Assembly (NCBI GenBank): GCA_013180625.2
Contig: SNVD02013716.1
Coordinates: forward strand, 1 to 64,000
Length of the DNA stretch: 64,000 bases
Direction of reading: 5' to 3'
Source: Boswellia sacra
Lineage: Eukaryota > Streptophyta > Magnoliopsida > Sapindales > Burseraceae
Position 1 is the first letter of the stretch. Each line of letters starts with the position of its first letter. This document shows, one piece after another, positions 27,030 through 63,122 of the stretch. The notes under the pieces are model-generated. The model worked only from the letters and a program-made list of their open reading frames with translations. It did not search any database and was not told where the DNA came from. The translations under genes were made by a program, and so were the position numbers.

Positions 27030-27129
27030 CCTTACATTGAGTAAGTATCTAATTTTCTTATTTCTTCGTATAATTTTAGTTGTTCAATTCCTTATTTTGT
27101 CCTATATATCTAACCAATGTTGTATTTGT

Positions 27130-37244: not shown

Positions 37245-37701
37245 TGTAGAGATTGAATTTTTGAGGTTCGACGAAGAAACAAATATGAATGTCAAGAGGT
37301 AGAAATGACCAAAATACCCTTGGAGGCCAATAAGAGAAAGGTGAGAAAGAATCGGTGAAAGGTCTTGAAAACTAACATTTGGCTTCAAAATTCACAGAAA
37401 TTAATCCATAAGGAATCTGATGATGAGTCATATACCATTGCGAAGCTACGAATATGTCTAGTTTTCATATAAATTTATAGATCACAAATTGAAGTTGAAC
37501 TTGAAAAGTTATATGCGATCGAACAGATGAAGGTTAGAAGGGACTGCATTACAAACTGGTAAAATATGAAGGATTGGAGTGTAAACAGTTGTGTCGGCTA
37601 TCAAACAGTCGCGTGGTTGTTCCCCTTTTATTTTTGGTAAATCTCATAAAAATCATTCCATTTTTGTTTTTCTCCTTCCTTTTTTCAACTCAACCCTTAA
37701 C

Positions 37702-37709
37702 TATATAAA
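37702..37709 (+). promoter_or_regulatory. Probable TATA box in the X LTR
   Basis: TATATAAA in 'aactatataaaccctcatcc', conserved at 59527-59534 in the 3' LTR and, inverted, near 39755 in the nested solo LTR. A CT-rich stretch follows about 40 bp downstream. Confidence 0.6.
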
Positions 37710-38364
37710 CCCTCATCCTTCTCAGTTTCAAGACATCTAGAAATCCTCTCTCTCTCCCTCTCTCTCCCCCTCTAGGACACATTTGTAAGAATTTCAAGGA
37801 ATTTTTTCTAGTCTAATATTTTTTGGGCATTTTATATTGCTCTGAATCCGAAAGGATACGTGCTGAGAGTAGTTTTCTCTTCTCCCTCTTATTTTCTTCT
37901 TTATTTTTCTTACATAGAATTAAGTATGTTTCGGTTTATTTATAATTAGTATAAGCATGTTTAGGATTTATTTTGATACTTAGAAGCATGCTTAAGATTT
38001 TATAGAATTATTAATCCTTTACTTGTTTTGCAAGGTGGAAATGCTTGTCAAGGTAAGTTATCTTTCCTTTCCTTATTTAGAAACATGAACAGGAATTTAA
38101 TTTTGTTTGCAAATGTCTTAGAATCATGCTTAGGGGCACACGATTAGAATCATGCTACGAGAATTTATGATTGCTTTGAAGTATGTTAGGAAATAGCATA
38201 GAATAGGTAAGAATTATCATATTACCCCTTTAATGCTTAGATTGGGCTAGAATAGCCTTGTTTGATTTTGATTATTTTTGATTGTTTGAATTAGGCTAGA
38301 AATACCATGATCCCTTGTGAATTAATATGAATTATGCCAGAATAGCAATAGGTAGAATGTCATG

Positions 38365-40294
38365 TGTGAACGGGACTTTAATCTCGCCAGAGTGTTTACG
38401 ATCACGACACTGTGTCAAAGCCTCTTTCGAGACTTAAGGGAATACAAACGAGCCATGAGCACGTATGGAGAATGAATTTGCCACCTGATCCCTTCCCATT
38501 GAGAATGAATAGGGGCAATCTGATCCTTTATTTCAAGACCTATGGGTTCAGGAAGTTAGATACGAGTCATCCGACCTGCCTGGATCAAAATCCGGTCGCT
38601 ACTAGGAAATACCAAATAGTAATATCTCATGCCATTACTTTGTCCATTTAATGTTGTTCATTTTATGCATACATTTCCATTTTATCTTCGTTAGACATTT
38701 TAGGTGATTATTCAATCAATGTCAATTATAAACATCCATAGAAAGAAAAAGGAGAATATATTACATTTCCGTTCAAACATAGGGGAAGGGGAAGAGGATC
38801 GCATCACTTTGTTCTTCAACAAATAAAATAATGGGCATTCATAATATAAATTCAAAATATAAAGTATAATTGATCCATTTGAGACCTAATAGTTGATGAA
38901 TTCCTAACCACCTTATGTGAGTCTATTCAACTTTTATTGAACCTCTACAAGTACATTCATTCATTTGAATATTCATTCTAAGTAATAGTCCCTCACCATC
39001 AATATGAGAGCACCACTACTTCATGGCATCACACAATTACACTTCTATCATAATACAAACATTCATACATTCACAAGTAAACAAATTATAAATCATGAAA
39101 AGCTATAATCTAGTATCATGGCATTCTAGCCTAGATTTGATAATTCTACCATGGCTTTTTAGCCTATTGATATTCTAGCATAATTCATATTAATTCATAA
39201 TTTCATGGCATTTGTAGCCTAAATATGACATTCATGGCATATTCTAGCCTAATTCAAGCAATTGAGATCAATCATAGCATCCAAGCATAAAATGGTAATT
39301 CTTATGCTATTTCCTAGCATTCGTCAAAGCAAGTACAAGCCTTCCTTAGCATGATTCTAATCATGTGCTCCTAAGCATGATTCTAGGCATTTGCAAAGAA
39401 ATTAAACTCCTAAGCATGATTCTAATAAAGAAAGGATAGCAGACTTATCTCGACATGTTTATCCATCTCGTAAAACAAACAAGAGTTAGAACAATTCATA
39501 ATAACCCTAAACATGCTCCTAAGCATAAAATTAAATCCTAAGCATGCTTATTCTAAGCAAGGAAAATAAAGGAGAAGATAGGAACGAGGAAAGATTTCTA
39601 CACTAAAGATGTACCCTTTCTAGGTTTAGAGTAATAGGATGCCTAAAAACTTTAAACTAGAAAAGACTCCTTGAGTTGTCAAGTATGTCTTCAAGAGGAA
39701 CAATGGAGAATTCTTTAGAATTATGTGAGTTGCAAAGTGAGAAGGGGGGAATTTATATAGAAGAGGGGTGAAGCTAAAAAAGGAAGAAACAAGACAAAAA
39801 GGAAGGTCTTTTAAGAAATATTCCAAAAATACAAGGGCAACAGCTGGGCAGCTATCTCCGAATAGTCAGCCAACCATCACTCAATAGTCAGGTGGCTGTC
39901 AGCTATCTAAGAGGCTGTTTTGGACAACTGGGTGGATGTTTGATAGCCGACCCACCGTTATCTCTTCGGCCCTTCCTAGTTTGCCATCCTTTAATGTAGT
40001 CCCTTCAGACCTCTGCTCATTTGATCACACATAACTTCTTGAATTCAACTTCGATCAATGATCTATAAATTTCTACAAACTAGACATGCGTAGCTTCGCA
40101 ACGGTATATGACTCACTATAAATTCTTCCTAGATTAATTTCTACGAATTTTTGAAGTCACATGTTAGTTTTCAAGACCTTTCACCAATTCTTTCTCACCC
40201 TTCTCTTCTTGGTCTCCAAGGGCATTAGGGTCATTTTCTTTGCTCGACATTCATCTTCATTCCTTCATCGAGCCTAAAAAATTCAATGTCTATA
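38365..40294 (-). mobile_element. Inverted solo LTR of the X family nested in the X 5' LTR
   Basis: Read on the minus strand it starts TATAGACATTGAATTTTTTA at 40294 and ends CCCGTTCACA at 38365, 1930 bp, matching the whole X LTR. It is flanked by TCATG (38360-38364) and CCATG (40295-40299), a target duplication with one change. There is no internal region, so it formed by LTR-LTR recombination. Together with the surrounding LTR it makes a long imperfect inverted repeat (37245-38364 against 38930-40294 and onward). Confidence 0.82.
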
Positions 40295-41087
40295 CCATGA
40301 TTTTAGATTATGGCTTTGTATTTTGATATAAATGAATTATGAATGTACTATGATTAGAAGCATGATTAGGATGATGTCATGAAGTGATGGTGGACTCACA
40401 TTGATGGTGATGGACCATTACTTATAATGAATGAATGTATAAGTACATGCTTAAAGAGGGTTAATAGATATTGAATAGACTAATATGTGGTGGTGAGGAA
40501 TTCATTATCTGTTGAGTCTCGAATTGACTATTTGTATTTGATATTTGAATGTATGATTTATGTGAATGAATGAATGTTATATTTGAAGTATTAAAGTAGA
40601 ATTTTCTTTATTTGTTGAAGAGCAATGTAATCCTCTTCTTCTTTCCCCCATGTTTGACAAAAATGTAATCCATTCTCCTCCTTCTTTTCTATGTATGAAT
40701 ATACTACTACTTTGATTAAATAATCACCTTATTTGCTTAAAGAAGAGAAAATGAAAATGTGTGCATAAATGAACCACTTATGCGAATTAAGTAACAATGC
40801 AAGCTATTCCTATTTGGTATTTGCCAAGAGGAGGCCGAATTTACATGCGGGCGGGTCGAGTGACACGTAACTAACTTTTTGAGCCCATCTCTGAATGGAT
40901 GAGGGTAGTTTAGGCCCCAAAGCGAGGGATCAAATTGCCTTCATTCATTCCCAATTTAAGAATTGGGTGGCGACTCCATTCTCTAGACGTATCCATGGCT
41001 CATTTATGTTTTCTTAAGTCACAAAAGGGGCTTTGACACAATTTCATGGTCGCAAACACTCTGGTGGGATAAAAGCACCATTCATAG

Positions 41088-42776: not shown

Positions 42777-44850
42777 AGACATTGAGGATGCATAAGTGTG
42801 TGGGAGAATCCTTGACCTAGGGAAAAGAATAATGGTGTTTTGAAATGTTTTGTCTTAAGAATAATATGAGAGTTGTGTATTCTTTTAATGATCATTGACA
42901 AAATCAACACTCATTGGAAATATGTTTTTGGTAATACATGAGATTGTGTTATTTGCATGCTTGACTCTTTTTGTCATATGAGTTCATTCTTGATTCTTTA
43001 ATCATTTGATCACAGTAGCCATGAATATGGAACTTTATATTTCTTAGAGAAACTTTATGTGAATAAAGCTTGGTGTTAAGATCTCGCAAGACTCTAGAAC
43101 CTGTTTGATCACCACTCGAGGCAAAATCATAGTCTTGACAACATAAAGCAAGTGATTTAGGCCTGCTTTGGAACAATCGAGCCTTTCAAGCCCACCTATA
43201 CTTACTTCATCATCACTAGTATACCCTATTAAGCCTAATCAAGCCTTTTCTTTGTATAACCATAAAATTTATCCTAAGACTAGAAAATTTTTTCTTACAT
43301 GAGTACCCTTCACACATAACATATGAATATTCTAGAAAAGAGTATTAAGAGCCATGTTTATGGGAGAATGAAAGGAAGTTGAGATTTTTTTTTTTTTGGC
43401 AATTTTGAGCTCCAAAAAAAAAAAAAAGAAGAAAAGAAAAGAGAAAAAGAAAAAGAGAGAAACGAAAAAAGAAGAAAAAGAAAAGAAGAATGCTAAGCCC
43501 ATTGCGTGTAAAGTGTAGGAGTGTAGCCACTCAAAATCAAAAGCAAAGCTAACGTGGTGGGTGAAAACTCAAAGTTTAGGGGTACAAATGGATGAAGTTG
43601 ATCATGTCAATCTAGAATGGTTGTATGATTTTGGGTAAGATAATCTTATAGGCTCCTTTATCATACCTTTACCCTAGCATATCATTATAAGCTTGATAAA
43701 GCCCTAACGATTCTTGATGTTGTGATGAGCTTACATCAGTAGAGAGTGGTGTGAAAGGCGGGCTTATGGTAGTCCTTCTATCTTTAGAGATTGATCACTA
43801 GTTTCTATTTGCACAAAGCTATCCAAGTCTTAACATATGAAGTATGATTAGCTATACTTGCACACACACAAAGAATCTTGAATGAAATAATTCTGGCATA
43901 GAGTCGAAATTGTGAAGGATCATGATGTCAATGCATTACCTTTGTGCTATTGAATTTGAAAAATCTTTGAACAATTCAAATGAGAATAAAATTGATAAAA
44001 AGAAGAAAATTTGCCAATAGTTTCCATTAATGGTATGAAAGAAGCAACTTGGCCACCAACGGTGAAAAAGTATGATATATGAAAGAAGTTATCCATTTTG
44101 GCTAGCATGGATGCCCATAAAGAAGGAGGAACAATACCTTTGGAGAAATTCCTTGAGACGATGCTAAACTCTTCATATAGGAGATAAAAGAATTACCCAT
44201 TCATCTTCAAAATTGAAAAGAAGTAGGGGACAAAGAGTTGTCCAATCATCTTGGGTAAGAAATTAAAGAAGGAAGCAAAGAATTGCCCTAATCATTTTGG
44301 AAATCATGAGAGGTGTTATCTCAATCATTGCAAAGAAAATGTAAGAAAGGGTACTAGAATAGATAGCCTATTTAGTAACCAAATCTGAAAAAAGGAGACA
44401 GAGAAAAAGCTAGCTAAGTAGAAAACCTGAAAAAGTGGCTTAGGCAAAAGTTAAGGCAAGTCCGCTAAGTTGAAAATCCAAAAGTACAAATTAGGCAAAA
44501 GTTTGGGCGTGAAAGAAAAGAAGAAAAAGCCTACTAAGTTGAAAACCTAAAAGGGAAACTTAGATAAAAGTTATGGCATGAAAGAAAAGAAGAAAAAGCC
44601 TACTGAGTTGAAAAACTGGAAGCGGCGGCTCAAGTAAAAGTTAGAGCAAGCTCGCTAAGTCGAAAACCCCAAGAAGGTGGCTTAGGCAAAAAAAAAAAAA
44701 AAAACAGAAAAGCATAAATAAAAAGAAGAAAAAGAAGAAGAACCCGTTAAATTGAAAACCCAAAAGGGCGACTTAGGCAAACGTTAGGGTTAAAAGAACA
44801 AAACTTGAAGAAGTAGAAAATTGCCACTAAATCTCTAACTCAGATCTATC
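42777..44850 (+). other. Athila-type 3' tail sequence inside X
   Basis: Right after gag comes 'gacattgaggatgcataagt' and 'gtgtgggagaatcc'. This phrase and much of the next 1.1 kb correspond, diverged, to the region before the 3' LTR of G2 (51470-52350): compare 'gatttaggcctgctttgg' (43154) with 'gatttaggccatctttgg', and 'aagcttgataaagcccta' (43688) with 'aagcttaataaagcccta'. X thus carries an Athila-like 3' untranslated region in place of pol. A purine-rich run lies at 43415-43490. No gene seen. Confidence 0.65.
44395..44815 (+). repeat. ~60-68-bp tandem repeat array in X
   Basis: Units share 'ctaagttgaaaacc' and 'ggcttaggcaaaagttag'-like blocks and 'gaaagaaaagaagaaaaagc'. They begin near 44412, 44460, 44528, 44596 and 44656 and on to 44760. 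Copies are diverged. Confidence 0.75.
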
Positions 44851-46262
44851 TGATAGGTGTCTATTTATGTATTACTTTCATATCAATTTGTCCATGTTTC
44901 TTTGCTATATTCCTTGGTATTTTTATGGTTTTGTGTGATTTTGATGTTTGTAGGAGTTTTGGAGCAACTTGCATAAAAATGGAGTAAAACCCTTCATTTT
45001 CACCTCTGCTAGTCAACCATCTTCTCGGATTTAATTGTATTGATATACAATGAACCCGATGACATATTATATACCGTTGGAAAGCTCTCGAAGTCTATTT
45101 TCTGGAGAAATTTACGGTTTATAAATCCATTCAGTGTACCAAAAGTTTAATCAAAACAGTGTGAGATGTATAGAAATATAATTCCACAAGCACTGTAGCA
45201 TGTATAATACGGGGCACTGTAGCAAGTCACTGTAGCAGAGTATTTTAACACATTTTAGGGTTTTATTTTTATAACTTGAAGAGGGGTAGAACGTGGTGGA
45301 GGCTGCAGCTCTGGAATTCTTTCATCTCTTGGAGTTCTTGAAGGAGAAAGGAAGCTTGGAAAGAGGAAGAACTACAATCCAAAGAGAATTACATCAAATT
45401 TGCTAAGTTTTTCCCTTCCCTTTCATTTTCTGGAATGTCTCCATGTTGTATTGTATTTACCACATTCTTAAAATGTGTAACTGAATCTGAATTGGTTGAG
45501 GGTGATTTCAAAGCCCCTGATATGGTTTTTGTAAGTTGATTGTGCAAGAAGTTGTTATCCAATTCTCTAATTGAATTTGCTTGTATTTTCCTATATCTAA
45601 TGCTTATGATTGCTTGCTGGATTGTATTTCGAATGGCCAACTGAATATAATCTGGTTGTTGTCTATTGCTAGATTAGAAATCTTGATCCGTAATTGTCTT
45701 GAATTTCTAATCATTAGTAGCAAAATTGTGATCAGAGATTGCAATTGGAGAATACAACCTAAGTTAAATAATCCGAGCTTGTGTGTTTATTGCTTAGATC
45801 AACCTATCTTTCTTATCGTAATGCATCCATTGAATTAAATTTAGAGAGCTTGTTCTAGGTTGTTTAATGGATAGAGATTAAATAAAGAGCTTGTTTTATT
45901 TAACAACAAAGTAAGGAAAGATTGGGATAACAGAGCTTGTTGTTATCTACGGTTGATAATTTCAATGGTGTAATTGGATGACAATTCTATGATTAATTCG
46001 CAAATCCATATCTTGTGGTAGAGAAGGATCCCTTAACCAGATTTCTCTCATTGATCTTTCAGTCAAATTAACTTTCTGTTTTGTTATTCTTAATTTGCAT
46101 TCTTATTTCATTTAGTTAATCATTCAACAAAACCCCCCCTGTTTAGTTTATTGTTGCTGGAAAATAACAAATTCAATTAGAATCAATCCTCGTGGGAACG
46201 ATATCTTACTTATCACTTTATTACTTGTGCGACTAGTATACTTGCTAGTTTCGAACGCATCA
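44851..46262 (+). repeat. 5' LTR of G2
   Basis: TGATAGGTGTCTATTTATG to CGAACGCATCA. It aligns across its length with 52590-53990, with scattered substitutions and indels (more indels near 53200-53300 and 53690-53830). It contains repeated 'cactgtagca' at 45190-45240. Confidence 0.95.
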
Positions 46263-46268
46263 AGTTTT

Positions 46269-46286
46269 TGGCGCCGTTGCCGAGGA
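46269..46286 (+). promoter_or_regulatory. G2 primer binding site (tRNA-Asp type)
   Basis: TGGCGCCGTTGCCGAGGA lies seven bases after the LTR, complementary to the 3' end of plant tRNA-Asp. It is the usual Athila primer site. Confidence 0.88.
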
Positions 46287-46444
46287 TTGATTTTCTAATC
46301 GATTTTTTATTTTGTTTTCATTGTTGATTCGTATTTTGTTTGTTTTTCTTTTCTGATTGTTTGTGTTTATGCGACATGGCAGTAAATTTCCAATAATTCA
46401 GTAGCCAATTTGAGCCACAATTACATTGGAGTGTAAATGAGGTA

Positions 46445-46909
46445 AGTACTCAGAACATTGAACAACAACTTTCTGAGCTAATCTCTCTTGTGGAAAATAT
46501 GGCTGTAGGAGATATGCAGAAATCTTATGCATGTGGGATATATTCTACCATGGAGCATCCAATCGACATGTTTCCAACTTTACAAGAAGAATATATGGAA
46601 CGAACCAATGCCATGGGTGGATTTTCAGGACAATCGAGGCAATGGTATGATCCCTTCTCTAATACTTACAATGCCGGATGGGGAGATCACCCTAATTTTA
46701 ATTACTGGAATCATCAACCAATCGCCCCAAATGCCATACCAAATCGGCGACAAGGTTTTAATCAGCCTAGAGTGCAACAACCATTTCAAATGCAACCACC
46801 ACCAATGCCACAACCAGCACCACAACCAGCTTCAGAAAACTCAGGTATGTCACTCCAGGATATTGTTAATGCACTTGCCACTAACACAATGCAATGGCTA
46901 CTAGCATGA
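46445..46909 (+). pseudogene. G2 gag, C-terminal part only
   Basis: The frame reads EQQLSELISLVENMAVGDMQ and then a zinc-knuckle relic, CGIYSTMEHPIDMF. Two of the four metal ligands (second Cys and last Cys of C-x2-C-x4-H-x4-C) are replaced by Tyr and Phe. Next comes YDPFSNTYNAGWGDHPNFNY and a Q/P-rich tail, the normal Gag C-terminus of this group. The main capsid domain expected upstream is missing: only about 180 bp separates the primer site from this part. Confidence 0.85.
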
Positions 46910-48357
46910 GCAAATTCGAGGGCCAATGCTCAGAAAAATTATCTTCTCAAACGGTGATCAATCCAAGAGAGAATGCTTGTGCGATAACTTTGCAAAGTGG
47001 AGAGCAAATTCAAAATGGAGAGCAAATGGAAGCTGGGGCAAGTATCCAAAACCTGACAAAGAAATTACAAACTGATGAAGAAAATGACATCACTTCCACC
47101 ATGAACAACACATCATCTTCTAAGGTAGATCTTAAAACTCAAATTCTTTCTTATGTTACTCCTCCACCATTTCCTAGCAGATTTGCAAAATTGAAGAAGG
47201 AGGAACAAGAACAAGAAATCCTGGAAACTCCTCACAAAATCGAGGTAAATATACCACTTCTGGATGCTATCGAGCAAGTACCTCGTTATATAAAATGTCT
47301 CAAGGAGTTATGCACCAGTAAGAGAAAGTTAAAAGGAAATGAGAAAGTAAGTGTAGGGGAAAATGTTTCAACTGTACTACAAAGAAAAATTCTTCCGAAA
47401 TGCAAAGATCCAGGTACGGTCACCATTCCATGCACCATTGGTAAAACCAAGTTTGAAAGAGCTATGTTAGATTTAGGAGCATCTATTTATGTCATGCCAT
47501 ATTCTATTTATGCTTCTTTAAATCTTGGACCTTTTGCGAAAACTGGTATTACCATTCAGTTTGCTGATCATTTAAATGCATATACCAAAAGAGTTGTGGA
47601 AGATGTGCTTGTGCAGGTGAATCAATTGGTTTTCCCAGCAGACTTCTATGTCCTTAAAATAGAGGATGAGACATCTCCTAATCCAACACCAATTCTTTTA
47701 GGGAAACCATTCTCGAAAACTGCTAGAACAAAGATTGATATTCATGATGGCATTCTCACCATAGAGTTTGATAGCAAGCTTATCCGTTTCAATATTTTTG
47801 AGGCAATGAGGTACCCTAGTGACTTACATTCTGTTTTTGCAGTTGACGTTATTGATTCTTTGCCACAATAATGTTTTGAGTTAACTCGCAAGAATGGATT
47901 GGATGTAGCTATTAGTGAGCACATAGGGATAGAAAATTCTAAGGAATCAAGAATTTTTATACAAGTGTCCAAACAAATGGAGGAAGCTGGGGCAAGCTTA
48001 GATGAGATCATAGCTATAACCACAAACAGGTATGATGTTTTGTACATTGAATTGCCTTTATCTAATGAGAAACTTCTTCCTTCTGTGATGAAAGCCAATA
48101 CCTTGGAGCTTAAGCCACTTCCAGATCATTTGAAGCATGGATTCTTGGGTGAGAATGGTACTTTGCCAATTATAATAGAAATGGGCCTCGCACCAATACA
48201 AGAAGTGAAACTCGTCCAAGTACTTAGAGATCACAAAATGGCTATTGGGTGGACAAGTGCTCACATCCAAGGCCCAGCCATATACGTGCACCATTTCTTG
48301 TGGAAGAAGGATCCAAGCCCACTAGTGAAGCACATCGAAGATTGGATCCTCCTATGA
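46894..48357 (+). pseudogene. G2 protease and pol linker
   Basis: One frame except for a TAA at 47869. It runs through ENACAITLQSGEQIQNGEQ, PPPFPSRFAKLKKEEQEQEI and VTIPCTIGKTKFERAMLDLG, with the aspartic-protease motif MLDLGASIYVMPYSIYASL (47465). Then come PILLGKPFSKTARTKIDIHD and the linker LELKPLPDHLKHGFLGENGT (48102). It ends in KHIEDWILL where RT should start (compare G1 at 690-720), then jumps to the post-pol phrase also seen in G1 at 37190. The frame is offset from gag by two bases. Confidence 0.9.
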
Positions 48358-48690
48358 TGGAACAACGTCGGGCTGAGGACGTTAAACCAAGCGCTTATTG
48401 GAGGCAACCCAATATTTTTTTAAAAAAAAAAAAAGAAAAATAAAATGAGGTAATAATGATCATTTTTGTGTCTCGAGGAGATTCCTTTCGTAGGCCATCA
48501 AATTGATCAGGTTTTATCTCTCTTTGCCATCTGTCTTATTTGTTTTTATATTTTTTTTACTTTTTTTTTACTTTTGTTTGCTATTGTATTGTTATCTCTT
48601 TATGTGTCTTTAGTTTCGTTTCTGCTCTTTTCTTTTCCTTCCTTTTGTTTAATTTGATTATTCTGTGCTTCGAATTCATTTGTGCAACAG
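48358..48690 (+). other. G2 deletion junction and pyrimidine-rich stretch ending in a splice acceptor
   Basis: 'acgttaaaccaagcgcttat' and 'ggaggcaaccc' match the G1 tail at 37211-37244. An A-rich run and a long T-rich tract follow (48480-48660), ending 'atttgtgcaacag' (48678-48690). The matching G1 sequence is 62738-63003. This looks like the 3' part of an intron, which would allow spliced expression of the post-pol ORFs. Inference only. Confidence 0.5.
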
Positions 48691-48771
48691 CTTGAGGAAA
48701 CATCCAAAAGGGAGTTGAAGCCATTGCCTGAAGGTTTGAAACGTGCATATCTTGGAGAAGAACAGACTTAA
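48691..48771 (+). pseudogene. Short pol-linker-like peptide at the start of the G2 post-pol region
   Basis: Directly after the acceptor-like CAG the frame reads ETSKRELKPLPEGLKRAYLG and ends in TAA. It is a diverged second copy of the protease-RT linker motif (LELKPLPDHLKHGFLGE at 48102). The same peptide is kept in G1 at 63004-63099, so it predates the split of the two copies. It may mark where the cargo block was joined from another Gypsy element. Confidence 0.6.
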
Positions 48772-48809
48772 TCATATTATTAGTAATATCTCTCTTTGTC
48801 TCCTCTTCC

Positions 48810-49364
48810 ATGGATGCTGATATCTTTCTGTTGAACCTTCGTAAATATTTCCCTTCACTTCCTCAAAATGCTGTGTTTAAAATTTATAAAGTATGGATGA
48901 CTAGACTTTGGGCATTGATGCTCCTAAATGTGCCTGCGGATATCCGATGGCTTATCGAAGCCAAGGTGAGATTGTCCAGTGAGCCGGACATTAATCTCGC
49001 AAAATACATGCTTGGTCTAGGAAAGAGCTACTACGCCAAGAGGCGAAGAGCGAAAAGGTTACAAGTATGTTATAAATGTGCTAGATGGAATTGTAACCAG
49101 ACTTGTCGTTCATTAGGTTTTGTGTCCAGGAATAGAGAAGATAAACTTTCATTTATTAAGAATGGTTTGAGTAATGAGTCGCTGGATAATGTTTTATTAA
49201 CTCTCGAGTCACATTCTTGTGGACTTGTTCAGCGTGAATTGCTTAATCTATGGACACAATTTCGTGATGAATTGCAGTGTTATAGTCTAGGGAATCTGAC
49301 TAAAAACGACCATGTTTGCCAGTTTATAAGAAAACTGGATGGGAAGCAAATCCCCGACTCATAG
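48810..49364 (+). CDS. 184-aa basic Cys-containing post-pol ORF, resembling carlavirus nucleic-acid-binding proteins
   Basis: Intact frame, ATG to TAG. N-terminal 60 residues are helical and hydrophobic (TRLWALMLLNVPADIRWLIE). A basic block GKSYYAKRRRAKRL (residues about 71-84) runs straight into CYKCARWNCNQTC (C-x2-C-x4-C-x3-C). A variable C-terminal part follows (SRNREDKLSFIKNGLSNESL). Arg-rich block plus Cys cluster after a hydrophobic helix is the layout of the small nucleic-acid-binding proteins of carlaviruses; the resemblance is by eye and not proven. The C-terminal extension is longer than in those. The related G1 frame at 63123 shows it belongs to this retrotransposon family. It lies 610 bp ahead of the LOG copy in the same direction. 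Function here unknown. Confidence 0.6.
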   Translation: MDADIFLLNLRKYFPSLPQNAVFKIYKVWMTRLWALMLLNVPADIRWLIEAKVRLSSEPDINLAKYMLGLGKSYYAKRRRAKRLQVCYKCARWNCNQTCRSLGFVSRNREDKLSFIKNGLSNESLDNVLLTLESHSCGLVQRELLNLWTQFRDELQCYSLGNLTKNDHVCQFIRKLDGKQIPDS

Positions 49365-49973
49365 AAGGCGTTTCAGCCGTTACTGGACGTAAAACCAGAG
49401 GAAGATGTGAGCCACAATCACAACTACTTGTATATTTGAATGTGTGTTGTTGTTGTTGAATTTTATTTTCTTCTTGTTTCGTTTGATCTGATTATCAATG
49501 TTGTTTTTGTGTTGTTGTTGTTTGTTGATTTTGTTTGTTTTAATTTCAAGTTTTCTTTTTGACAAACCATATACTACCCCATGACATAAGCACACGTGAG
49601 GGACAAGTGTGGAGGTTTTGTCAACCTCCGCCGAAAGTATATCTCTACTTTTCATGCTTCACGTGGGAGACAAGTGTGGCGGTTTTGTCAACCCCCGCCG
49701 AAAGTGTATCTCCATTTTCCATGCTTCACGTGGGAGACAAGTGTGTATGTTTTGCCAAACCTCGCCGAAAGCATATCTCATTTTTTCAAATCTTGGGGCG
49801 ATAAATCTGCATCGAGCAACTCCCACCAAAATTATGTCCCCATATGTCAAATTTGAAAGTTATATATCCATGCTGCATATTTTGAAATGTCATTTTATAA
49901 CCTGTATTGCACTTGAATCGCATAATACCGAACATACATCGTTGTCTTACACAAGTTTAGAGCACTTTTAGCA
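49365..49973 (+). repeat. Spacer with three ~67-bp minisatellite units
   Basis: Between the Cys ORF and LOG. T/G-rich up to 49560, then units with 'cacgtgggagacaagtgtgg', 'ttttgtcaacccccgccgaa' and 'gtatatctc' at about 49593, 49661 and 49728, ending near 49790. G1 has a single unit (63904-63960). No gene. The overlapping open frames here are artefacts of the repeat. Confidence 0.8.
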
Positions 49974-50624
49974 ATGGAGAAAGCACTAATTCGACGATTC
50001 CAAAATATATGCGTATTTTGTGGATCGCAATTTGGTAAAGATGGAGAGTTTACAACAGCAGCTCTTGATCTTGGTAGGACATTAGTTGTGAGGGGTATTC
50101 ATTTGATTTATGGAGGGGGTAGTCTTGGGTTAATGGGGTGTGTGTCGACAGTTGCCTCCTTGGGAGGAAGTAAAGTTCTCGACATTATCCCTAAACCATT
50201 AGCTGTGTGAGATATCGTATGCAACACCATGGGGGAAGAGTTGCAGGTTTCTAGTATGCATGAGCGTATTGCACATATGGTCATTAAATATGATGCATTT
50301 ATAGCTTTGCCCGGTGGCTATGGTACATTAGAGGAGATATTTCAAATCACCTCCTGGGCACAGTTAAACATCCATCGGAAACCCATTGGTTTGTTAAATG
50401 TCAATAATTTTTTTGATGGTTTGTTGTCTTTTCTTGATCAAGCTGTAGAAAAAAAATTCATCTCACAGTCGGCGAGGCAAATCCTGGTTACAGCTTCAAC
50501 TGCAAGGGAGTTAATTGATAAACTACAAGAATTCGTCTATTCGTCTGATTCAATAATGGCTCGGATAGATTGGTTTGGAGAAGGCAATAAGAGGCGTAAA
50601 CTGGATTTAACGCTCCATCTGTAA
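49974..50624 (+). pseudogene. LOG: Retro-copied LONELY GUY (cytokinin nucleoside-5'-monophosphate phosphoribohydrolase)
   Basis: LOG enzymes release active cytokinin bases from their ribotides in the cytosol. The frame has 216 residues, the normal LOG length, with no introns, whereas plant LOG genes have several. It opens MEKALIRRFQNICVFCGSQF, then LIYGGGSLGLMG and, after the stop, VSSMHERIAHMVIKYDAFIA, LPGGYGTLEEIFQITSWAQL (the PGGxGTxxE signature) and FISQSARQILVTASTARELI. A single TGA at 50208 (codon 79) interrupts it. LOG relatives have Arg there, so CGA to TGA is likely. No other lesion is seen, so the frame was kept until recently or is young. It lies inside G2, 2 kb before the 3' LTR, in the element's direction, and would be transcribed from the LTR. 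Confidence 0.9.
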
Positions 50625-52589
50625 TCTCTATCTGCTGGTTTGCTTTGTTTTTGTTTTGCTTTCTATTTATTGTGTTTATTTGAGAGTTTTCATGTTATTT
50701 CTTTTTAGCTTTTTCAGGTTATTTCTTTCGCCCCAGGTAATATTTTCTAATCATGGCTTTTAGAGTGGTGGCTTTAAAAGTTTAATTCCTCTTGAAACGC
50801 ATTCTGGATCTCTTCAATCCATAATGGCTGAATAAGGAGGCTAACTTCTAAACTTTTTAGACCCATTCTAACTGACTTATTTTTGTTTGCTGGCTTGTTG
50901 GACTGTTATTTTATGAGTAAGTTTAGTTTTGTGTAATTTAGAGTTGTTGTATGTTTTTGTCTATATCAGTTTCGATTCAAAAAAAAAAACATTGTGGAAA
51001 AACCTGAGAATGGCAGAATATGGGGTTTCCTTAACTGTTGAAACGCATTCTCTCTAAATAAATATGTAGTTTGTTTATTTTATGTTGTTTGAAGTGTCTT
51101 GTTTCTTGTTTTGTTCTTCATAATAAGGGTATATAGGCTGGAAACCTTAAGTCTGCGCGCTACTGGTCCTAAGGATTGTTGAAATATACAATCTTGACTC
51201 AGGTGTAACAACGCCACGTACCTCTTTTCTTTCATTTTGTGGGTCGATGATAAGATAATGATTGAATTAATAATAACTCTTGGAAAATGATAAATGATGC
51301 ATGGATCTGTGTACTTGAAATGTTTATTGGTTTTCGCTTTGCTTTTGATTCCTTGCGCAACATTGAGCACTGAGCTTTTATCACTGAGTTTTTTGTTCAC
51401 TTAGAGAAAGTTTATGTAATTTAAATGTTTCTTCAGATTTCAATGAATTCTAGAACTTGTTTGATGGTCCCTCGAGGCGAAATCCTAGACTGTGCAACAT
51501 TGGGGAAATGATTTAGGCCATCTTTGGACCGTTTGAGCCTTAATAGCCAACCTTGACTGAAATTGATCCCTAGTTACCCTTTGAGCCTCTGTAAGCCTTT
51601 TTCTTTGTTAACTCACTAAAAGATTTCCTAACCTCAAATGAATTTGTTCCAAACATTTATCCCTTACCTATGAGCATGTAGATCATTCACAATTAAATTT
51701 TGAGCTATGTTCTAGTTTTAGGAAGTTAGAGGAGGTTGGGATGTGTCATGAGCAATGCAAGTGAGTCCTATTGTGTTTGTAAAAAAAAAAAAAAGAAAAA
51801 AGGAAAAAAAGCCAATCTATTCTTATCATCCACGTACTTACACATTGAGGATAATGTGTTGTTTAAGTGTGGGGGAGGGGAAGTGTAATAAAAAAAAGAA
51901 AAAAAGAAAAAAAAGAGAACAAAGGAAGAAGAATAAGAGATCTATACCCTTAAGTGTTCTTAAAAAAGTGTGGTAGTGTAGTTTTCTTTTGTTTTCTGCA
52001 AAAAAAAAAAAAAAAAAGATTGAGTGTTCTAAATAAGTTTGGAGGAGTAACCTGGTGAATTGAAATAAAGTTGTGTTATAAGGTTGAGCTCTACATAGTC
52101 TTGAATGATTTATGTGTTTGTGGTGATTTGAGCCAAATTATTATCCTTTATCATACCTTCACCCAAGCCAAACGTTACAAGCTTAATAAAGCCCTACTTG
52201 ATCCTTAGTATTGTGCTTGTCTACATTAGTGGAGAGTGACTTGAAAAGCAGGCCTATGGAGTTCATTTATACACACATCTTCACTATTAAATATGATTAA
52301 TTTTTAAGCATAAACTCATCCGGGTTACAAGTGATTAGGTGATAATGGCTCTACACACACACACTTGAGGAATTGAAGTGAAGCGAAACTAATCTTAGAG
52401 ATGAAATTCTTGATCAAGTGCATTATTTTGAATTTTTCCTTGGGTTATAATTAAGTACAATCTTTGAGGCCTATTTGCAAGATGAAGCATTTGTGTGTTT
52501 TAATTTTTTGTTGATTCTGTTTCGGTTTAGTTTTATTTTATATTGTCGTATTTGCTCGAGGACTAGCAAAGTCTAAGTGTGGGGGAATT
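50625..52589 (+). other. G2 3' untranslated region and polypurine tract
   Basis: No gene. T-rich to 51100. Then it has the Athila-type phrases 'cattgaggataatgtgttg' and 'taagtgtgggggagggg' (51844-51890), and poly-A/purine runs at 51780-51810, 51890-51930 and 52000-52018. It ends in the polypurine tract 'taagtgtgggggaattt' at 52573-52589 directly before the 3' LTR. Confidence 0.75.
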
Positions 52590-53990
52590 TGATAGGTGTC
52601 TATTTATGTATTACTTTTATATCAATTCGTCCATGTTTCTTTGCTATATTCTGTGGTATTTTTATGTTTTTGTGTGTTTGGATGTTTGTAGGAGTTTTGG
52701 AGCAACTTGCACAAAAATGGAGTAAAACCCTTCATTTTCACCTCTGCTAGTCATTGATCTTCTCGTATTTAATTGTATTGATATACAATGAACCCGACGA
52801 CATGTTATATACCGTTGGAAAGCTCTCGAAGTCTATTTTCTGGAGAAATTTACGGTTTATAAATCCATTCAGTGTACCAAAAGTTTTAATCAAAACAGTG
52901 TGAGAAGTATAGAAATGTAATTCCACAAATCACTGTAGCATGTATAATACGGGACACTGTAGCAGGTTATTGTAGCAGAGTATTTAAACATATTTTAGGG
53001 TTTTATTTTGATAACTTGAAGAGGGGAGAACGTGGTGGAGGCTGCAACTCTGGAATTCTTTCATCTCCTCGAGTTCTTGAAGGAGAAAGGAAGCTTGGAA
53101 AGAGGAAGAACTAAAAACCAAAGAGAATTACATCAAATTTGCTAAGTTTTTCCCTTCCCTTTCATTTTCTGGAATGTCTCCATGTTGTATTGTAATTTAC
53201 CAACATTATTAAACATGTGTAATTGAAATTGAATGTTGAGGGGGGATTTCAAAGCCCCTCCTGATATGGTTTTTGTAAGTGATTGTGCCAAGAAGTTGTT
53301 ATCAAATTCTCTAATTGAATGTGCTTGATGTTTCCTATATCTAATGCTTATAATTGCTTGCTGGATTGTATTTCGAATGGCCAACTGAATATAATCTGGT
53401 TGTTGTCTATTGCTAGACTAGAAATCTTGATACGTAATTGTCTGGAATTTTTAATCCTTAGTAGCAAAATTGTGATCAGAGATTGCAATTGGAGAATACA
53501 ACATAAGTTAAATAATCTGAGCTTGTGTGTTTATTGCTTAGATCAACCTATCTTTCTTATCGTAATGCATCCATTGAATTAAATTTAGAGAGCTTGTTCT
53601 AGGTGTTTAATGGATAGAGATTAAATAAAGAGCCTGTTTTGTTTAACAACAAAGTAAGGAAAGATTGGGATAACAGAGCTTGTTGTATCTAGGTTGATAA
53701 ATTCCAATGGTGTATTGGTAACAAATTCTATGATAATCGCAAATCCTATCTTGGGAAGAAGAGGATTCCCTTAACCGGTTTCTCTCATTGATTTTTTCAT
53801 CAATTAACTTTATGTTTGTTATTTTTATTGCATTTAATATTTCATAATAGTTAATCAATCAACAAAACACCCATTTCTGTTTTCGCTTTCGAATAACAAA
53901 TTCAATTAGAATCAATCCTCGTGGGAACGATACTTACTTATCACTTTATTACTTGTGCGACTAGTATACTTGCTAGTTTCGAACGCATCA
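52590..53990 (+). repeat. 3' LTR of G2
   Basis: TGATAGGTGTC to GAACGCATCA, followed by the target duplication CTATC (53991-53995). It pairs with 44851-46262. Confidence 0.95.
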
Positions 53991-53995
53991 CTATC

Positions 53996-54840
53996 CTAAC
54001 ACCATCCAATCCAATCAAGTCTTAGCTAAAATCAAAGGAACAGTTGTGAAACCTGGGCTCATCTAAGAAATGATGATCACAAGACCGTCTAGAGAGATAA
54101 TAGAAACTGCAAAGCCAATATGATGCGTTTCTATCCATCATCTCAAGCAAAGACATAATAGAAGACAATGTCACTCTACCACTTCTAGTGTAAATGCTCG
54201 TGATAGAAATTAGAGAGTCAAAAAGTTAGCAAGACATTGATGGCGTTAGAATTGAATGAATGAAAAATGAATATGGCAGAGAATTCCTTATGTAAGGGGT
54301 AAAGCTCTTACCTATTGAAGCAAAAGGCATGACCATTCCAAAAGGTCGTGCAATCCTTGAGAAAGGGGATGTCGAGCTTTACATGTTAAAGGAATTTCAG
54401 ATTGCAGAGGCTGTTGGATTGGAGTTATTTCCAGTTGTCATCCTTTAGAAGCCTTAATAGAGGCTAGAGAGTCTTGGAGGAAACCTTAGACATATTGAAA
54501 TATGAGAAAAGGCATTAGAAGGTGTGAAGGGAAGTAGAGGGGAAAAAGAATAGCTGATGATGTCAGTCTTCACTTATCATCACTATTATTATCAGTATCA
54601 AGAAGTAGTGACCTAAGCCTGAAGGCATTTGATTCCTCACTCCAAATGAGCATTTTCTTGATGACTTGTCTAATTTAAGCAAGAAGGACATAGTTGTAAA
54701 AGATAATTAAAATAGATTTCATGCGTAAATGAAACATAAAATATTTTTTTGCAGGTTGCACAATTCAGAATGGTATACAATTTATAAGTAATCGAGTATA
54801 ATTACAACACAATGTGAAATACTAGCAATAACTGCAAAAG
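53996..54840 (+). other. X interior resuming after G2, non-coding
   Basis: Continues X after the CTATC duplication. No recognisable gene or repeat up to 54840. Confidence 0.5.
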
Positions 54841-55117: not shown

Positions 55118-57246
55118 TTTTTTTTTTTTGGAAAAGTTACTTAATAATATAAATCCAAAAAATAATGTACAGGAATCCGAGGGGCATACCCCAAGAATTA
55201 CAGTAATGACATAAAGTCCAACAAGAAATCAAATAAAAGGCCATAGACGGCCTGAACAAAATAGCTCTCCAAGGACCATAAATGGCCTAAAAAGTAAAGA
55301 AAAAAACAATAGTGACAAAAAAGGTTCAAACATAAAGGAGAGAAGTCACGTCCATAATAATGCTCTAACCCTTTTACTTCTTCTTCTTCTTACCCTTCTT
55401 TGTAGGGGTAGTCGGGGTGTCCGAATGAGTTTGATCAAGCCTAGGAGATTGATCCTCATCACTTAGCCTATTAAAAGGGTCGAAAAGAGGTTGTCCTGCA
55501 TCAATCCGCCCTGACGAAATAGATGCCTCACGATTGATAGAACACTGGATGGTACCCAAAAGCCTACCCTGAGTGGTAGCAAAATGAGATAAAGAATCAG
55601 AATTTGAGATTGACTTTGCAGTCAAAACTTTAGCAGTCGTAGGAGGCACAACTTGAATTGCAGAATTTACCGGAAAAGCAACAGGTTTTGAACTCTCAGC
55701 GACATGGGTCATATCCTCACCTGTATTCAAAGGGGCGCTAACAGAGGGATTTGCCTCATTCTTTCCCTTACCTGAAGTCTGTGCTAGTTCTAGACAACGA
55801 TGCCTAAACATACAACATTTGGGGCAACGTTTTGCAATCCATTCATATTCAACCCAAATTTGGATGGGCTTTGGAGAGAGTTTGTATCTGAACTCAAAAT
55901 TCTGAATCGGAGGGTGGTTTGCATCAAGAGGAACACAGACCCTCGCATACTCCAATCTATAAAGATCAGAAGTCATCTTGTCGCAAGAAATAGGCTGTCC
56001 AACCATGCTGGAAACAATGCTAAGGCCGTTGGTTGTCCATAAAGGAAACGGCAGGCCATATAAATGGATCCAAATGGGAAGCTTCCTTACTTGATCTGCA
56101 GTAAAATCCAAATATGGGTGCCATGGCTGTAAGAGAATGTTTTTACCTCCAAACATCCAAGGACCGCGAGCAATGATAGCATGAACCTCATCCTCAGTTT
56201 GAAAACAAAAGATGAGAAATCCCGTGTCTGTGGAGTAGATGTCCTCTAGACCGCTAGATTTTCATGCACGCATGTCCATCGAACGTGTAGCATGAAACGA
56301 CATCACATATCCTGGAAAGACGCTGATAAGACATCTATACTATTCGGCCACATTCTCATTGACAATCTTATCTGGGATCTCAAGGACTGTACCCAATTGC
56401 TTGAGAGTAACCAGATTCAATTTGTAAAAAGTGCTCGAATCAGTGATCTTAATTTTATCAATCCAATAATTAGCAGTTGACTTGGGTAGGTCCATCAAGG
56501 GAATTGCAAATCAAGGCAATGAAAACCTCATAAAAAAGAGATGGAAAACAAAAGCAAACCAGGCACTGAACGGGGCGGGCTTGTGAAGTCATCGTCGCCA
56601 CTTTATAATCGATAATCCGTGAGAAATCAGGGGGGCGGCCCAGAAGCAAAGTTGCGTGGTTTAACCTGAGGAACAATCTAGTCAAGTTGGTGAACAGTGT
56701 AGGCCGGAAGAACAGTACCAGCGGTGGTGAATAGTGTCACCCGAAAGGAAGAAACGGCGATTTGAGGTAGTTGTGGTAGGAATTGAATGACGGCATGGAA
56801 GGAAAAGTTGATCAGCATTGCGCGATCTACAAGATGATGGTGGAGGTGAGAAGCCACTTGCCGATCGCTGGAAAGTGGCGGCGGTGAGTAGTGAAATGCT
56901 GAACTTTGTTACCGTAGATGGAGGAGTTGCAGGGCTAATCAGGTGGTGGTGTTGAAGGCAAGGTTGTAGATCAGGGCAAGGCCAACACGATGGTGGGGGA
57001 GATGACTATTCACTTGCTCGTCGACGGTAGATGAATAGTAAATCCAATCACTGTTTTTTGCGATTTTGATCGCCTTCTGGTTGGAATTCAAAGAGGGTCA
57101 AGAAGGAAAGTTTACTCAGGGTACTCTGATATACAACATATGTAAATCTCAAAGGCTATTTCGCCGATTAGCTGGAGTGAACAGTAACTCCGGCCACCCT
57201 AGTTGAGAGAAAAATTTTCTCCCATCCAAGCTCCCTAGACCCTTGT
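55118..57246 (-). mobile_element. LINE (L1-type) carrying ORF1 only, minus strand
   Basis: A 12-base poly-T at 55118-55129 is the poly-A tail read on the other strand. A 9-bp duplication ACGTCAATC lies at 55109-55117 and 57247-57255. On the minus strand there is a GC-rich leader, ORF1 (DUF4283 plus zinc knuckle), and about 250 bp of 3' untranslated sequence. The endonuclease/RT ORF2 is entirely missing, so the copy is internally deleted and was moved by another LINE's enzymes, or is a naturally short derivative. Confidence 0.87.
55374..56252 (-). pseudogene. LINE ORF1 (DUF4283 RNA-binding protein with zinc knuckle)
   Basis: Minus strand. The frame enters DUF4283 with FLIFCFQTEDEVHAIIARGP, then PWHPYLDFTADQVRKLPIWI, IHLYGLPFPLWTTNGLSIVS and YARVCVPLDANHPPIQNFEF. 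The zinc knuckle is CPKCCMFRHRC (about 55800). A Ser/Thr-rich tail ends in a lysine run and stop at 55374. The N-terminal quarter upstream of 56252 is broken by stops and frame changes. The protein would bind LINE RNA in the RNP. Confidence 0.85.
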
Positions 57247-58985: not shown

Positions 58986-59146
58986 CAGTTGAAGGGACCT
59001 TTTTGTAGGAATAGAATAAGAGAGAGAGAGATGATGAGAAAGTCTATATAAGAAGAACGAAGGTGAAGAGGGAAGAAAGAAAGGGGAAGCAAGAGTACCT
59101 TGTTAACTTTTGTGTCTCACAAACCTCTACAAAGTAGTAGCTATGC
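58986..59146 (+). promoter_or_regulatory. X 3' end with polypurine run
   Basis: A purine-rich run at 59058-59094 ('gaagagggaagaaagaaagg') lies about 50 bp before the LTR start instead of touching it. It is the best plus-strand primer candidate. 'agagagagagag' also at 59022. Confidence 0.5.
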
Positions 59147-62100
59147 TATAGATACTGAATTTTTGAGGTGCGATGAAGAAATAAAGATGAATATCGAGAG
59201 GTAAAAATGACCAAAATGCCTTTGGAGGCGAAGAAGAGAAGGGTCAGAAAGAATCGATGAAAGGTCTTAAAAACTAACATGTGACTTAAAAAATTCATAG
59301 AAATTAATCCATAAGGAATCTAATGATGAGTTATATACTATTGTGAAGCTACAGATGTCTAGTTTTCATATAAATTTACAGAAACAAATCGAAGTTGAAC
59401 TTGAAAAGCTATATGTGATTGAATAAATGAAGGTCAAAAGGGACTGCACTATAAAGTTGCAAAATATGAAGGTTCAGAGGTCAATAACCGCCCAACTGTT
59501 AGCCAACAGCCGCCCGACTGTTAAAATATATAAACCCTCATCCTTCTCAGTTTCAAGACATCTAAAAATCCTCTCTCTCTCTTTCCCCCTCTAGGATCCA
59601 CTTGTGAGAATTTCAAGGAGTCTTCTTTAACCTAATATTTTTTTGGGTGTTTTTTATTGCTCTAAACCTAGAAAGGTTACGTCCTGAGAGTAGTTTTCTC
59701 TTCTCCCTCATATTTTCTTCTTTATTTTTCTTGCTTAGAATTAAACATGTTTAGGTTTATTTATGCTTAAAATAAGCATGTTTAGGATTTATTTTGATGC
59801 TTAGAAGCATGCTTAGGATTTGATAGAATTGTTTTATCCTTTGTTTGTGTTGCAAGGTGGAAATGCTTGTCAAGGTAAGTCTTTTTTCCTTTCCTTATTT
59901 AGAAACATGAATAGGAATTTAATTTTGTTTACAAATGTCTTAGAATCATGCTTAGGAGCACATTATTAGAATCACGATAGGAGAATTTACGATTGCTTTG
60001 AAGAATGCTAGGAAATAGCATAGAATATGTAAGAATTACCATATTGCCCCTTGAATGCTTAGATTGAGCTAGAATAGCCTTATTTGATTTTGGTTGTTTT
60101 TGATTGTGTGAATTAGGCTAGAAATGCCATGATCCATTATAAATTAATATTAATTATGCTAGAATAGCAACAGGTAGAAGGCCATGATAGAATTATCAAA
60201 TCTAGGCTAGAATGCCATGATTCTAGATTATGGCTTTGTATTTTGACATTAATGAATATATGAATGCACTGTGATTAGAAGCATGATTATGATGATGCCA
60301 TGAAGTGCTGGTGGACTTACATTGATGGTGAGAGACCATTACTTATAATGAATAAATGTATAAGTATATGCTTAAAGAGGCTTAATAAATATTGAATAGA
60401 CTCACATATGGTTGTGAGGGATTCATTATCTATTAAGTCTTGAATTGACTATTTATATTTTATATTTGAATGTATGATTTATTTGAATGAATGAATGCTA
60501 TATTTGAAGTCTTAAAGCAGAATTTACTTTATTTGTTGAAGAGCAATGTAATCCTCTCCCTCTTTCCCCCTTGTTTGACTGAAATGTATTCCATTCTCCT
60601 CCCTCTTTCTATGTATGAATATAATACTGTTTTGATTGAATAATCACCTTATTTGCTTAAAGAAGATAAAGTGAAAATGTGTGTATAAAATGAACGACTT
60701 AAGCAGACTAAGTAACAACACTAGCTATTCCTATTTAGTGTTTCTCAAGTGGAGGCTGGATTTACATCCGGGCAAGTCAAGGAACTTGTACCTGACTTTT
60801 TGAACCCATCTCTTAATGGATGAGGGTAGTTTAGGTTTCAAAGTGAGGGATCAAACTGCCCTCATTCATTCCCAATTGAAGAATTGGGTGGCGACTGTTA
60901 GCCTTAAGGCTACATGATAATTTTGATGATAACAATACACATTGATTAATTGAGATTTACTAGCATGTTTATTTATGTGCAAGAGTAATATCATTGAAAT
61001 AATTGTAAAATCAAGAAGAGGCTTATTAAAATGAAGTGTTAAAGCTAAGGAGAAGACTACATGTTAAAGGCACCAAAGTTTAAGAACAAGGTTTTATTCA
61101 AGGAATATGATACATGAGAAATGTTCAATCAATTGGTCATATATTTCTCTACAGATGTCCAAATGACGTGATTCTTAAGCCTTTGGAAAGCTTACTCAAT
61201 TTATAACATTTCGTATGTTTTAAAGAAATTTAAATTTCAAGTGTAAGGTTGTCCAAATCATCATACAATTTGAAAGACAAATGGAAGCAGCTGACATGAG
61301 CATCAAATACACTTTTGGACATATCATGAGCTAAAAAATTCAAAATGACGTGATTATTATGGCATTGGAAAGAGGACATAATGAGGCACATTTCATATGT
61401 TTTTAATAAATTCAAATTTCAAATGGAAGGCTGACATAATTGACATGCAATTCGGTGGACTAACACAGAGAAGAAAAATCAACTCATATGAGCACTGAAT
61501 GATGATTTGTCCGTATCTTGAGATAGACATATCTAAATGCTTTGATTTTTAATGTTTTGGAAAGATAATTCAAATATGCAGATCTTTTATGTTTTGAATA
61601 AATTCAAATTTCAAATGGAAGGCTGACAGAATTATCACTCAATTTGGTGGACTGACACAAGGAAGAAAAATCAAGTCACATGAGCACCGAATGGTTTTTT
61701 GGCCATATCTTGAGCTACAGATATCCAAATGACTTGGTTCTTGATGTGTTGAAAATCGTATTCAATTGTGTAGATCTTTTAGGTTTTGTAGATTTTCAAA
61801 TTTCAAAGAGAACATTAAAAAAAATGGCAGACAAAATTATAGTTTTTATGGTGGGCAGAAAATTTGGAGATGGTGTCTTCACTTGATTAAGTTCATCTCA
61901 TTTGCCTATAAAAGGAGCCCTTCTCCCATGCATTCAACAAGAAGTGAAGAGAAGAATCCATCAAGCCACAAATAAGAGAAATATCAAGTTTAGAGAGCTT
62001 TTATATTCTTTATCTACTCTTTGAAGAGAGTTGTACTTTTGTTGTAAAAATTTTCTTTGTTCTTGTATTGTGGTGAGAGTGAGATCTACTTGTAAAGGAT

Positions 62101-62732
62101 AAAAGTTATCCTTGAGAGAATTCTTTCCTTGGTGAGGTTGTTCATCAAGAAGAACTCTTGGTGTGGTGTTATCAGGGGTTGAAGGAAGTTGCCTTGGTGA
62201 GGTTGTTCATCCAGAAGAACTCTTGGTGTGGTGTTATCAAGAGTTGGAAGAAAAAGTCTTGGTGAGGTTGTTCATCAAGCAAGTTGTAAAGATTTCTACA
62301 ACTTAGTGAAAAGCTTAGCTCGTGGAGCTAAGAGCCCGTGGACGTAGGCAAGGTTTGCCAAACCACGTACATCGAGTTTGCACTCTCTCTATCCCTATAC
62401 TCTTTACATTTACTTGCACTTGTGATTGTTCATCATTATTATTCTCTTGATAAAATATTTGATAACTTCCAATTTCATCTTCTTCACCTTCATTCTCAAA
62501 GAAAGAGTAAACTAATTTTGATATTTCAAGAAAAGTTTTACAAATCCTTTTTGATAAATAAAAACCCAATTCACCCCCCCCCCCCCCCTCTTGGGTTGCC
62601 ATACCTGGATCAACAGCGACTCCATTCTCCAGACGTGTCCATGGCTCATTTGTGTTCTTTTAAGCCTCGAAAGGGGCTTTGACACAGTGTCGAACTAGTA
62701 AATGCTCTGGCGGGATGAAAACCCCATTCACA
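59147..62732 (+). repeat. 3' LTR of X (split by a Copia solo LTR)
   Basis: It starts TATAGATACTGAATTTTTGA and ends AACCCCATTCACA. Without the nested solo LTR it is about 1.86 kb and aligns with 37245-41086 and 38365-40294. TATA-like TATATAAA at 59527-59534. Followed by the duplicated AACCC. Confidence 0.87.
60896..62615 (+). mobile_element. Solo LTR of the SIRE-like Copia family
   Basis: TGTTAGCCTTAAGG to TGGATCAACA, 1720 bp, matching 1349-3157 and 8233-10035 throughout. It is flanked by the perfect duplication GCGAC (60891-60895 and 62616-62620). It has the ~190-bp U3 units, TATAAAAG at 61907-61914, only about two of the ~65-bp minisatellite units (62127-62270), and a longer poly-C run (62574-62588). 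No internal sequence remains. Confidence 0.95.
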
Positions 62733-62737
62733 AACCC

Positions 62738-63003
62738 AATGTTTTTATTTTAAAAAAAGGGAAAAGATGGCTTATTTAATGATAAATTTTTTTTTTTTGT
62801 ATCTGGAGGAGATTCTTTTTGTGGGATCTATCTGTCATAATTGATCAAGTTTTATCTCTCTTTGCAATCTGTCTCATTTCTTTGTTGTTTATTTTTTAAT
62901 TTTGTTTGCTGTTGTGTTTTTATTTCTTTTTTGTGTCTTTATTTTATTTTATTATCTTTGTTCAATTTGATTATTCTGTGCTTTGCACTCATTTACACAA
63001 TAG
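62738..63003 (+). other. G1 post-pol region resuming after X
   Basis: Starts 'aatgtttttattttaaaaaa', the continuation of the 'ggaggcaaccc' phrase left at 37244, and aligns with G2 48406-48690. T-rich, no gene. It ends in 'tttacacaatag', where G2 has the acceptor-like 'tttgtgcaacag'. Confidence 0.8.
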
Positions 63004-63099: not shown

Positions 63100-63122
63100 T
63101 ATCTTTCATTTTCTCCTCTTCA

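Follow-up and report, generated by a model that had tools for sequence, protein, structure and literature searches.

The question raised by this locus was how a frame coding for a cytokinin-activating LOG enzyme came to lie inside an LTR retrotransposon of Boswellia sacra, and whether it represents a stray copy of a host gene or a part of the element itself. The DNA analysed, hereafter the window, is a stretch of 64,000 nucleotides of contig SNVD02013716.1. The frame was located within a single LTR insertion (44851-53990) bounded on both sides by a perfect 5-bp TSD, CTATC. The LTRs start with TGATAG and end with GCATCA, that is, with TG..CA termini, and paired LTRs together with a TSD identify the insertion as an LTR retrotransposon. 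Alignment of the two LTRs (44851-46262 against 52590-53990) gave an identity of 92% and a K2P distance of 0.089, corresponding to an insertion age of around 3.4 or around 18 million years if 1.3e-8 or 2.5e-9 substitutions per site per year, respectively, are assumed. The features recognized in the insertion were the following (window positions, with the evidence in brackets):

44846-44850, no strand: TSD CTATC, left copy (sequence ends compared)
44851-46262, plus strand: 5' LTR (TGATAG...GCATCA), 1412 bp (LTR alignment, ends and TSD)
46269-46286, plus strand: PBS-like stretch TGGCGCCGTTGCCGAGGA (position just inside the 5' LTR)
46397-46909, plus strand: presumed gag remnant, so called by likeness (Pfam scan without match)
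46885-47871, plus strand: protease region (match to Asp_protease_2 at E 0.0021, which falls short of the curated cut-off)
47872-48357, plus strand: stretch that we take, by likeness, to be the pro-RT linker (matches another Ty3 element at window 223-708)
48712-48768, plus strand: second, short copy of part of the linker, immediately 5' of ORF-X (63% aa, E 0.007)
48810-49364, plus strand: ORF-X, upstream of LOG, uninterrupted, coding for a viral-NABP-like protein of 184 aa (Pfam, family alignment)
49593-49793, plus strand: three 67-nt tandem repeats, hairpin-capable, between ORF-X and LOG (z -2.2; folding equalled by 3 of 200 shuffles)
49974-50624, plus strand: LOG frame of 216 residues, pseudogene (frame translation, Pfam, structure match)
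50208-50210, plus strand: in-frame TGA at LOG codon 79 (frame translation)
50589-50621, plus strand: C-terminal tail of LOG, with a basic patch and an EAR-like LxLxL (tail comparison)
52577-52589, plus strand: PPT-like stretch GTGTGGGGGAATT (position just before the 3' LTR)
52590-53990, plus strand: 3' LTR, 1401 bp (LTR alignment, ends and TSD)
53991-53995, no strand: TSD CTATC, right copy (sequence ends compared)

Since the PBS-like and PPT-like stretches stand at the expected ends, LOG is in sense with the element, which confirmed the placement between the LTRs described in an earlier note on this DNA. A chromosomal LOG gene spanning the LTR borders, the finding that the note had named as speaking against a retro-copy, was ruled out, because 49974-50624 falls wholly within 44851-53990 and its matching TSD. 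The main frames (46397-48354 and 48810-49361), when scanned with Pfam, yielded neither RT, RNase H nor integrase. The whole window was also queried by tblastn with Ty3 fragments lying outside the insertion (partial probes: two RT pieces, 86 and 81 aa long, and one RNaseH-INT piece of 237 aa), and no RT or RNaseH-INT match fell in the insertion. This agrees with the loss of these enzymes pointed out in the note; the insertion does not have the complete gag-pol of an autonomous element and is a defective member. Its lineage appears to be Athila-like, judging from the PBS, the 3' placement of the extra ORFs and the linker, which is 58-71% aa alike to that of a different Ty3 element in the window; the PBS-like stretch presumably resembles Athila/tRNA-Asp sites. 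An Rfam scan of 44700-54100 gave no match, and no tRNA was found by the tRNA scan. The 67-nt hairpin repeats could be important for expression of the downstream gene; the last of them, together with its flank, is also matched at 63903-63999, in a second element described below. The duplicate of the linker at 48712-48768, next to the NABP-like frame, is a possible scar of gene acquisition or splicing.

Other mobile sequences were present elsewhere in the window. A Copia-like element (1349-10035; rve, SH3_retrovirus), with LTRs at 1349-3157 and 8233-10035 that are 96% alike and a TSD CTATG, sits inside a pol of Ty3 type (RVT_1 at 881-1138, with E 3.3e-4 not reaching the cut-off); the sequence after 10035, which we take by likeness to be the continuation of this pol, gave no Pfam match. 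A solo LTR at 60896-62615 is 88-90% like the copia LTRs and has the TSD GCGAC. CACTA-type transposase pieces (Transpos_assoc, Transposase_21, DUF4218, DUF4216) occupy 24906-28005, a Ty3-type RNase H-integrase fragment lies at 35711-36421 (Integrase_H2C2, E 4e-8), and a repeat has copies in both orientations at 37244-41084 and 59143-62732. On the minus strand, 55374-56261 contains a frame with DUF4283 (E 2.5e-26), a domain that frequently accompanies LINE-type elements of plants.

With the stop written as X, the LOG frame matched Pfam Lysine_decarbox (E 1.3e-35) and At2g37210 (PDB 2a33, E 2.5e-63), by which a chance frame was ruled out. The domain, the PGGxGTxxE motif (PGGYGTLEE in the window) and the catalytic Arg of LOG phosphoribohydrolases were all present, these residues having an active-site role; the whole frame with one stop, as reported in the earlier note, was recovered. 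Apart from the stop, only one of the 60 positions at which the family is at least 94% uniform deviates, and the family residues at the stop site (residue 79) vary, so that the CGA-to-TGA change proposed in the note is a putative origin of the stop. Under neutral drift since insertion a mean of 1.2 stops was expected and one was observed, which agrees with a frame inserted intact and drifting neutrally ever since. No frameshift occurred in LOG plus ORF-X, as compared to 4.2 to 6.8 expected from the LTR indel rate (P 0.015 to 0.001), a signal that we hold to be weak because LTR indels cluster. The window copy is dead, and as a pseudogene it is expected to have no effect on its host; the influence on host growth suggested in the note is thus not to be expected of it.

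Relatives of the frame were examined as the best 120 of 7821 protein-search matches, obtained with a query that itself has the tail. These 120 showed an aa identity of 54-72%. The named sources among the matches listed were Pterospermum, Reevesia, Diplodiscus, Xanthoceras, Melia, and Populus; Pterospermum belongs to Malvales and Xanthoceras to Sapindales, and we take Reevesia and Diplodiscus to be Malvales and Melia to be Sapindales. Many-member clusters occurred among these matches (327 sequences in Pterospermum, 205 in another cluster, 39 and 35 in Xanthoceras), whose sizes are not strict copy numbers, as members may come from several assemblies. A tree of the LOG core was built from 62 sequences: the window LOG, 31 of the relatives listed, 16 canonical LOGs taken from the 120 listed, LOG8, 12 bacterial sequences and one from IMG/VR; LOG5, LOG7 and rice LOG were left out. 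In this tree the 31 relatives and the window LOG formed a clade (UFBoot 99) beside the canonical LOGs of plants, and the sequences from plants, 49 in all, also grouped together (UFBoot 99). The canonical set came from a single search with a LOG3-type query, and its member P0121 was only 52% identical to the window frame. Judged from this tree, the lineage of the window LOG split long ago from the canonical LOGs sampled, so that the parent gene of the earlier reading is not recent. A LOG carried by an LTR element thus stands; for the LOG types included, the tree rules out its origin as a recent retro-copy of a living host LOG.

Active-site residues were conserved across the relatives of 190-235 aa: Arg98 was kept in 109 of 114, Glu121 in 110 and the PGGxGT residues in 109-112. 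The predicted model of one relative, P0004, had the LOG fold (pLDDT 84.8; best PDB match 2a33, E 4.9e-24), with low confidence in the last 15 residues. Living copies of the clade are putative LOG phosphoribohydrolases that would release active cytokinin. The relatives are also likely to be situated in LTR elements, judging from the linkage to NABP described below, the cluster sizes, the consensuses published for Citrus and Populus, and the window copy itself; taken together, the relatives suggest that a LOG in an LTR element is not a one-off. In the viral collection a one-protein query gave no match and an alignment query gave 26 loci, at most 49% identical, with no plant element; in the genome collection the best 80 of 583 matches had bacterial titles, with no plant element among them. 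The 26 viral loci (L001-L026) are IMG/VR contigs coding for LOG-like proteins that are 24-49% identical to the LOG family.

A C-terminal tail distinguished the relatives from canonical LOGs. Of the 120 relatives listed, 96 had LxLxL within their last 20 residues and 109 a basic patch within their last 24; the corresponding counts for the 120 listed canonical LOGs were none and one. Among relatives of 212-229 aa, 95 of 107 had LxLxL in the final nine residues. The Leu columns of the tail are nearly fixed and the alternate columns variable (S/T/N; R/S/H), as is typical of a peptide motif. LxLxL is reported as one form of the plant EAR repression motif (PMC6283911, PMC9956375), and this form is found in the window tail and in the same 96 relatives; LxLxL/EAR has also been reported in plant pathogen effectors. 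Four deep members among those sampled (P0031, P0049, P0060, and P0082) end before LxLxL, which may mean that the tail reached its full form only after the clade arose or that these deep members lost it.

Contrary to the view of LOG as the lone accessory gene of the element, ORF-X, missed in the earlier note, lies directly upstream. It matched Viral_NABP (E 3.5e-10) and Carla_C4 (E 1e-5), each above the curated cut-off, and thus contains a carlavirus-type NABP domain, with a basic stretch followed by C-x2-C-x4-C-x3-C (Cys 87, 90, 95, and 99). PF01623 was found in 113 of the 120 ORF-X relatives listed out of 138, and in a set of 35 sequences (34 relatives and the window) Carla_C4 appeared in 33 and Viral_NABP in 32 (E <= 0.01). 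The predicted model of ORF-X was weak (pLDDT 62.7). Three of its four best matches in a viral library were nucleic-acid-binding proteins or an RNA silencing suppressor, at non-significant E values of 0.2 to 1.0, from the flexuous plant viruses Fig latent virus 1, Red clover vein mosaic virus and Sweet potato chlorotic fleck virus. For ORF-X, 1.3 stops were expected since insertion, with a probability of 0.28 of finding none, and the uninterrupted frame was accordingly dropped as a sign of selection. The window contains a second copy:

62794-63999, plus strand: second related element, the counterpart of 48463-49823; its copy of ORF-X (from 63123) is broken

This element is cut by the window end around 150 nt before the expected LOG start. 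Differences between the two ORF-X copies of the window were spread without bias over the three codon positions (32/31/33), with a dN/dS of 0.58 vs. 0.57 and 0.80 in control frames, so that the copies offer nothing for selection.

Evidence for linkage of the two genes came from other plants. The NABP part followed by the LOG part occurred in one gene model in P0313 (Rhamnella, Rosales), P0329 (Orobanche minor, Lamiales), and P0354 and P0356 (Citrus); in all four the LOG part scored higher against the tailed-LOG set than against the canonical set, and three of the four ended in LxLxL. Orobanche is a parasite, and its copy may have been received from a host plant. Three contig sizes above 2 kb (8723, 2425, and 2128) were common to the NABP and LOG lists vs. 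0.18 expected (one of 2000 trials as high), with the 2-kb limit chosen after the lists were seen; over all sizes the coincidence was weaker (eight pairs vs. 3.6 expected, 66 of 2000 trials as high).

We consider it likely that Athila-like Ty3/gypsy elements carry LOG as an old accessory gene, paired with a gene for a viral-NABP-like protein, and that the frame in the window is a decayed copy of this LOG. The models and relatives above suggest that such elements have long carried the NABP and tailed-LOG pair in several plant groups, and the pair probably favors the element in dividing cells. Living LOG copies would free active cytokinin from its riboside monophosphate, and the cytokinin would favor cell division where the element is expressed; the basic, EAR-like tail might bring LOG to the nucleus and to TOPLESS-type corepressors. 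The NABP-like protein, in turn, could blunt RNA silencing or alter host transcription by analogy with carlavirus cysteine-rich proteins, which are reported as silencing suppressors (PMC8839810, PMC8742542), that of chrysanthemum virus B being linked to uppL and cell proliferation (PMC8839810). More tentatively, and with doubt prevailing, the two genes may form a host-manipulation module kept across eudicots, in which a nuclear, cytokinin-making and TOPLESS-recruiting LOG acts with a viral-type silencing suppressor, expressing cells stay dividing and poorly silenced, and new copies reach the germ line.

Other explanations were weighed against the accessory pair. LOG might have been transduced once, long ago, and carried without function ever since, intact frames being merely young copies; the stop in the window LOG and the divergence of the two ORF-X copies without codon bias agree with this. 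Drift, however, is not expected to keep the Leu positions of the tail while their neighbors vary, and frames 54-84% identical to P0035 keep near-equal length and active-site residues (in a protein database that lists mostly intact frames), so we regard a functionless passenger as unlikely. Somewhat less improbable, though still doubtful, is an enzyme kept for a role other than cytokinin activation, acting for instance on other nucleotide monophosphates, or serving as a scaffold that binds TOPLESS and could do without its active site. LOG-fold structures have been solved with AMP bound, and the tail is the new trait of the clade, but the active-site residues kept in 95-98% of the 114 members speak against such a role.

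The least probable alternative, in our judgment, is that the tailed LOGs constitute an ordinary expanded host subfamily captured by elements occasionally. Some relatives are annotated as LOGL10 in Populus, and LOG5, LOG7 and rice LOG types, absent from the tree, leave room for it; nevertheless, clusters of hundreds of sequences (327 and 205), the NABP-like linkage in the Rhamnella, Orobanche and Citrus models and the LTR-flanked copy in the window all speak against it.

Compared with known systems, the locus combines familiar and new traits. The frame shares the fold, PGGxGTxxE and the catalytic Arg with plant LOG1/3/4 types and LOG8 (At2g37210, At5g11950), and it differs from a canonical plant LOG in its identity of only around 52%, its uninterrupted frame (plant LOG genes contain introns) and the extra basic LxLxL tail. 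Two Athila-like elements with LOGL4 similarity were reportedly described by Steinbauerova et al. in 2011. A later survey reports a YgdH (LOG) domain in consensus Ty3/gypsy elements from Citrus sinensis, C. clementina and, when its filter is not applied, Populus trichocarpa (PMC9289625). The two accounts agree. These consensuses likewise have a LOG-like extra ORF inside an LTR element, and LOG within Ty3/gypsy elements is therefore of a known kind; as far as the accessible main text of that paper goes, partner gene, tail and clade are not described, and Carla, NABP, PF01623 and PF05515 do not appear. No report of the tail, the NABP-like partner or the LOG clade was found in the open-access literature. 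The same study describes Ty3/gypsy elements of Phalaenopsis that encode an AlkB m6A demethylase, a captured enzyme that was kept and whose activity was shown in vitro; that enzyme is a different one, was restricted to Phalaenopsis in that screen and was called a recent acquisition (PMC9289625). ORF-X has two Pfam matches in common with carlavirus cysteine-rich/NABP proteins and, like the jasmine virus C protein, a basic stretch directly before the C4 finger (PMC8839810). Its finger spacing, C-x2-C-x4-C-x3-C, departs from that reported for jasmine virus C (C-x2-C-x12-C-x4-C; PMC8839810) and is thus not the carlavirus one; it differs, moreover, from carlavirus NABP in having further conserved N- and C-terminal parts and in being encoded by a retrotransposon.

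A retrotransposon lineage with a cytokinin-activating enzyme that ends in a repression-type tail, and with a plant-virus-like NABP, could manipulate both the hormone state and the silencing of its host, in parallel with viruses and gall-forming bacteria, which would be unusual for a retrotransposon. If true, this would mean that genes have passed between LTR elements and plant RNA viruses or the hosts of these viruses. Some annotated plant LOG genes may then be transposon genes, distorting the counts of the LOG family.
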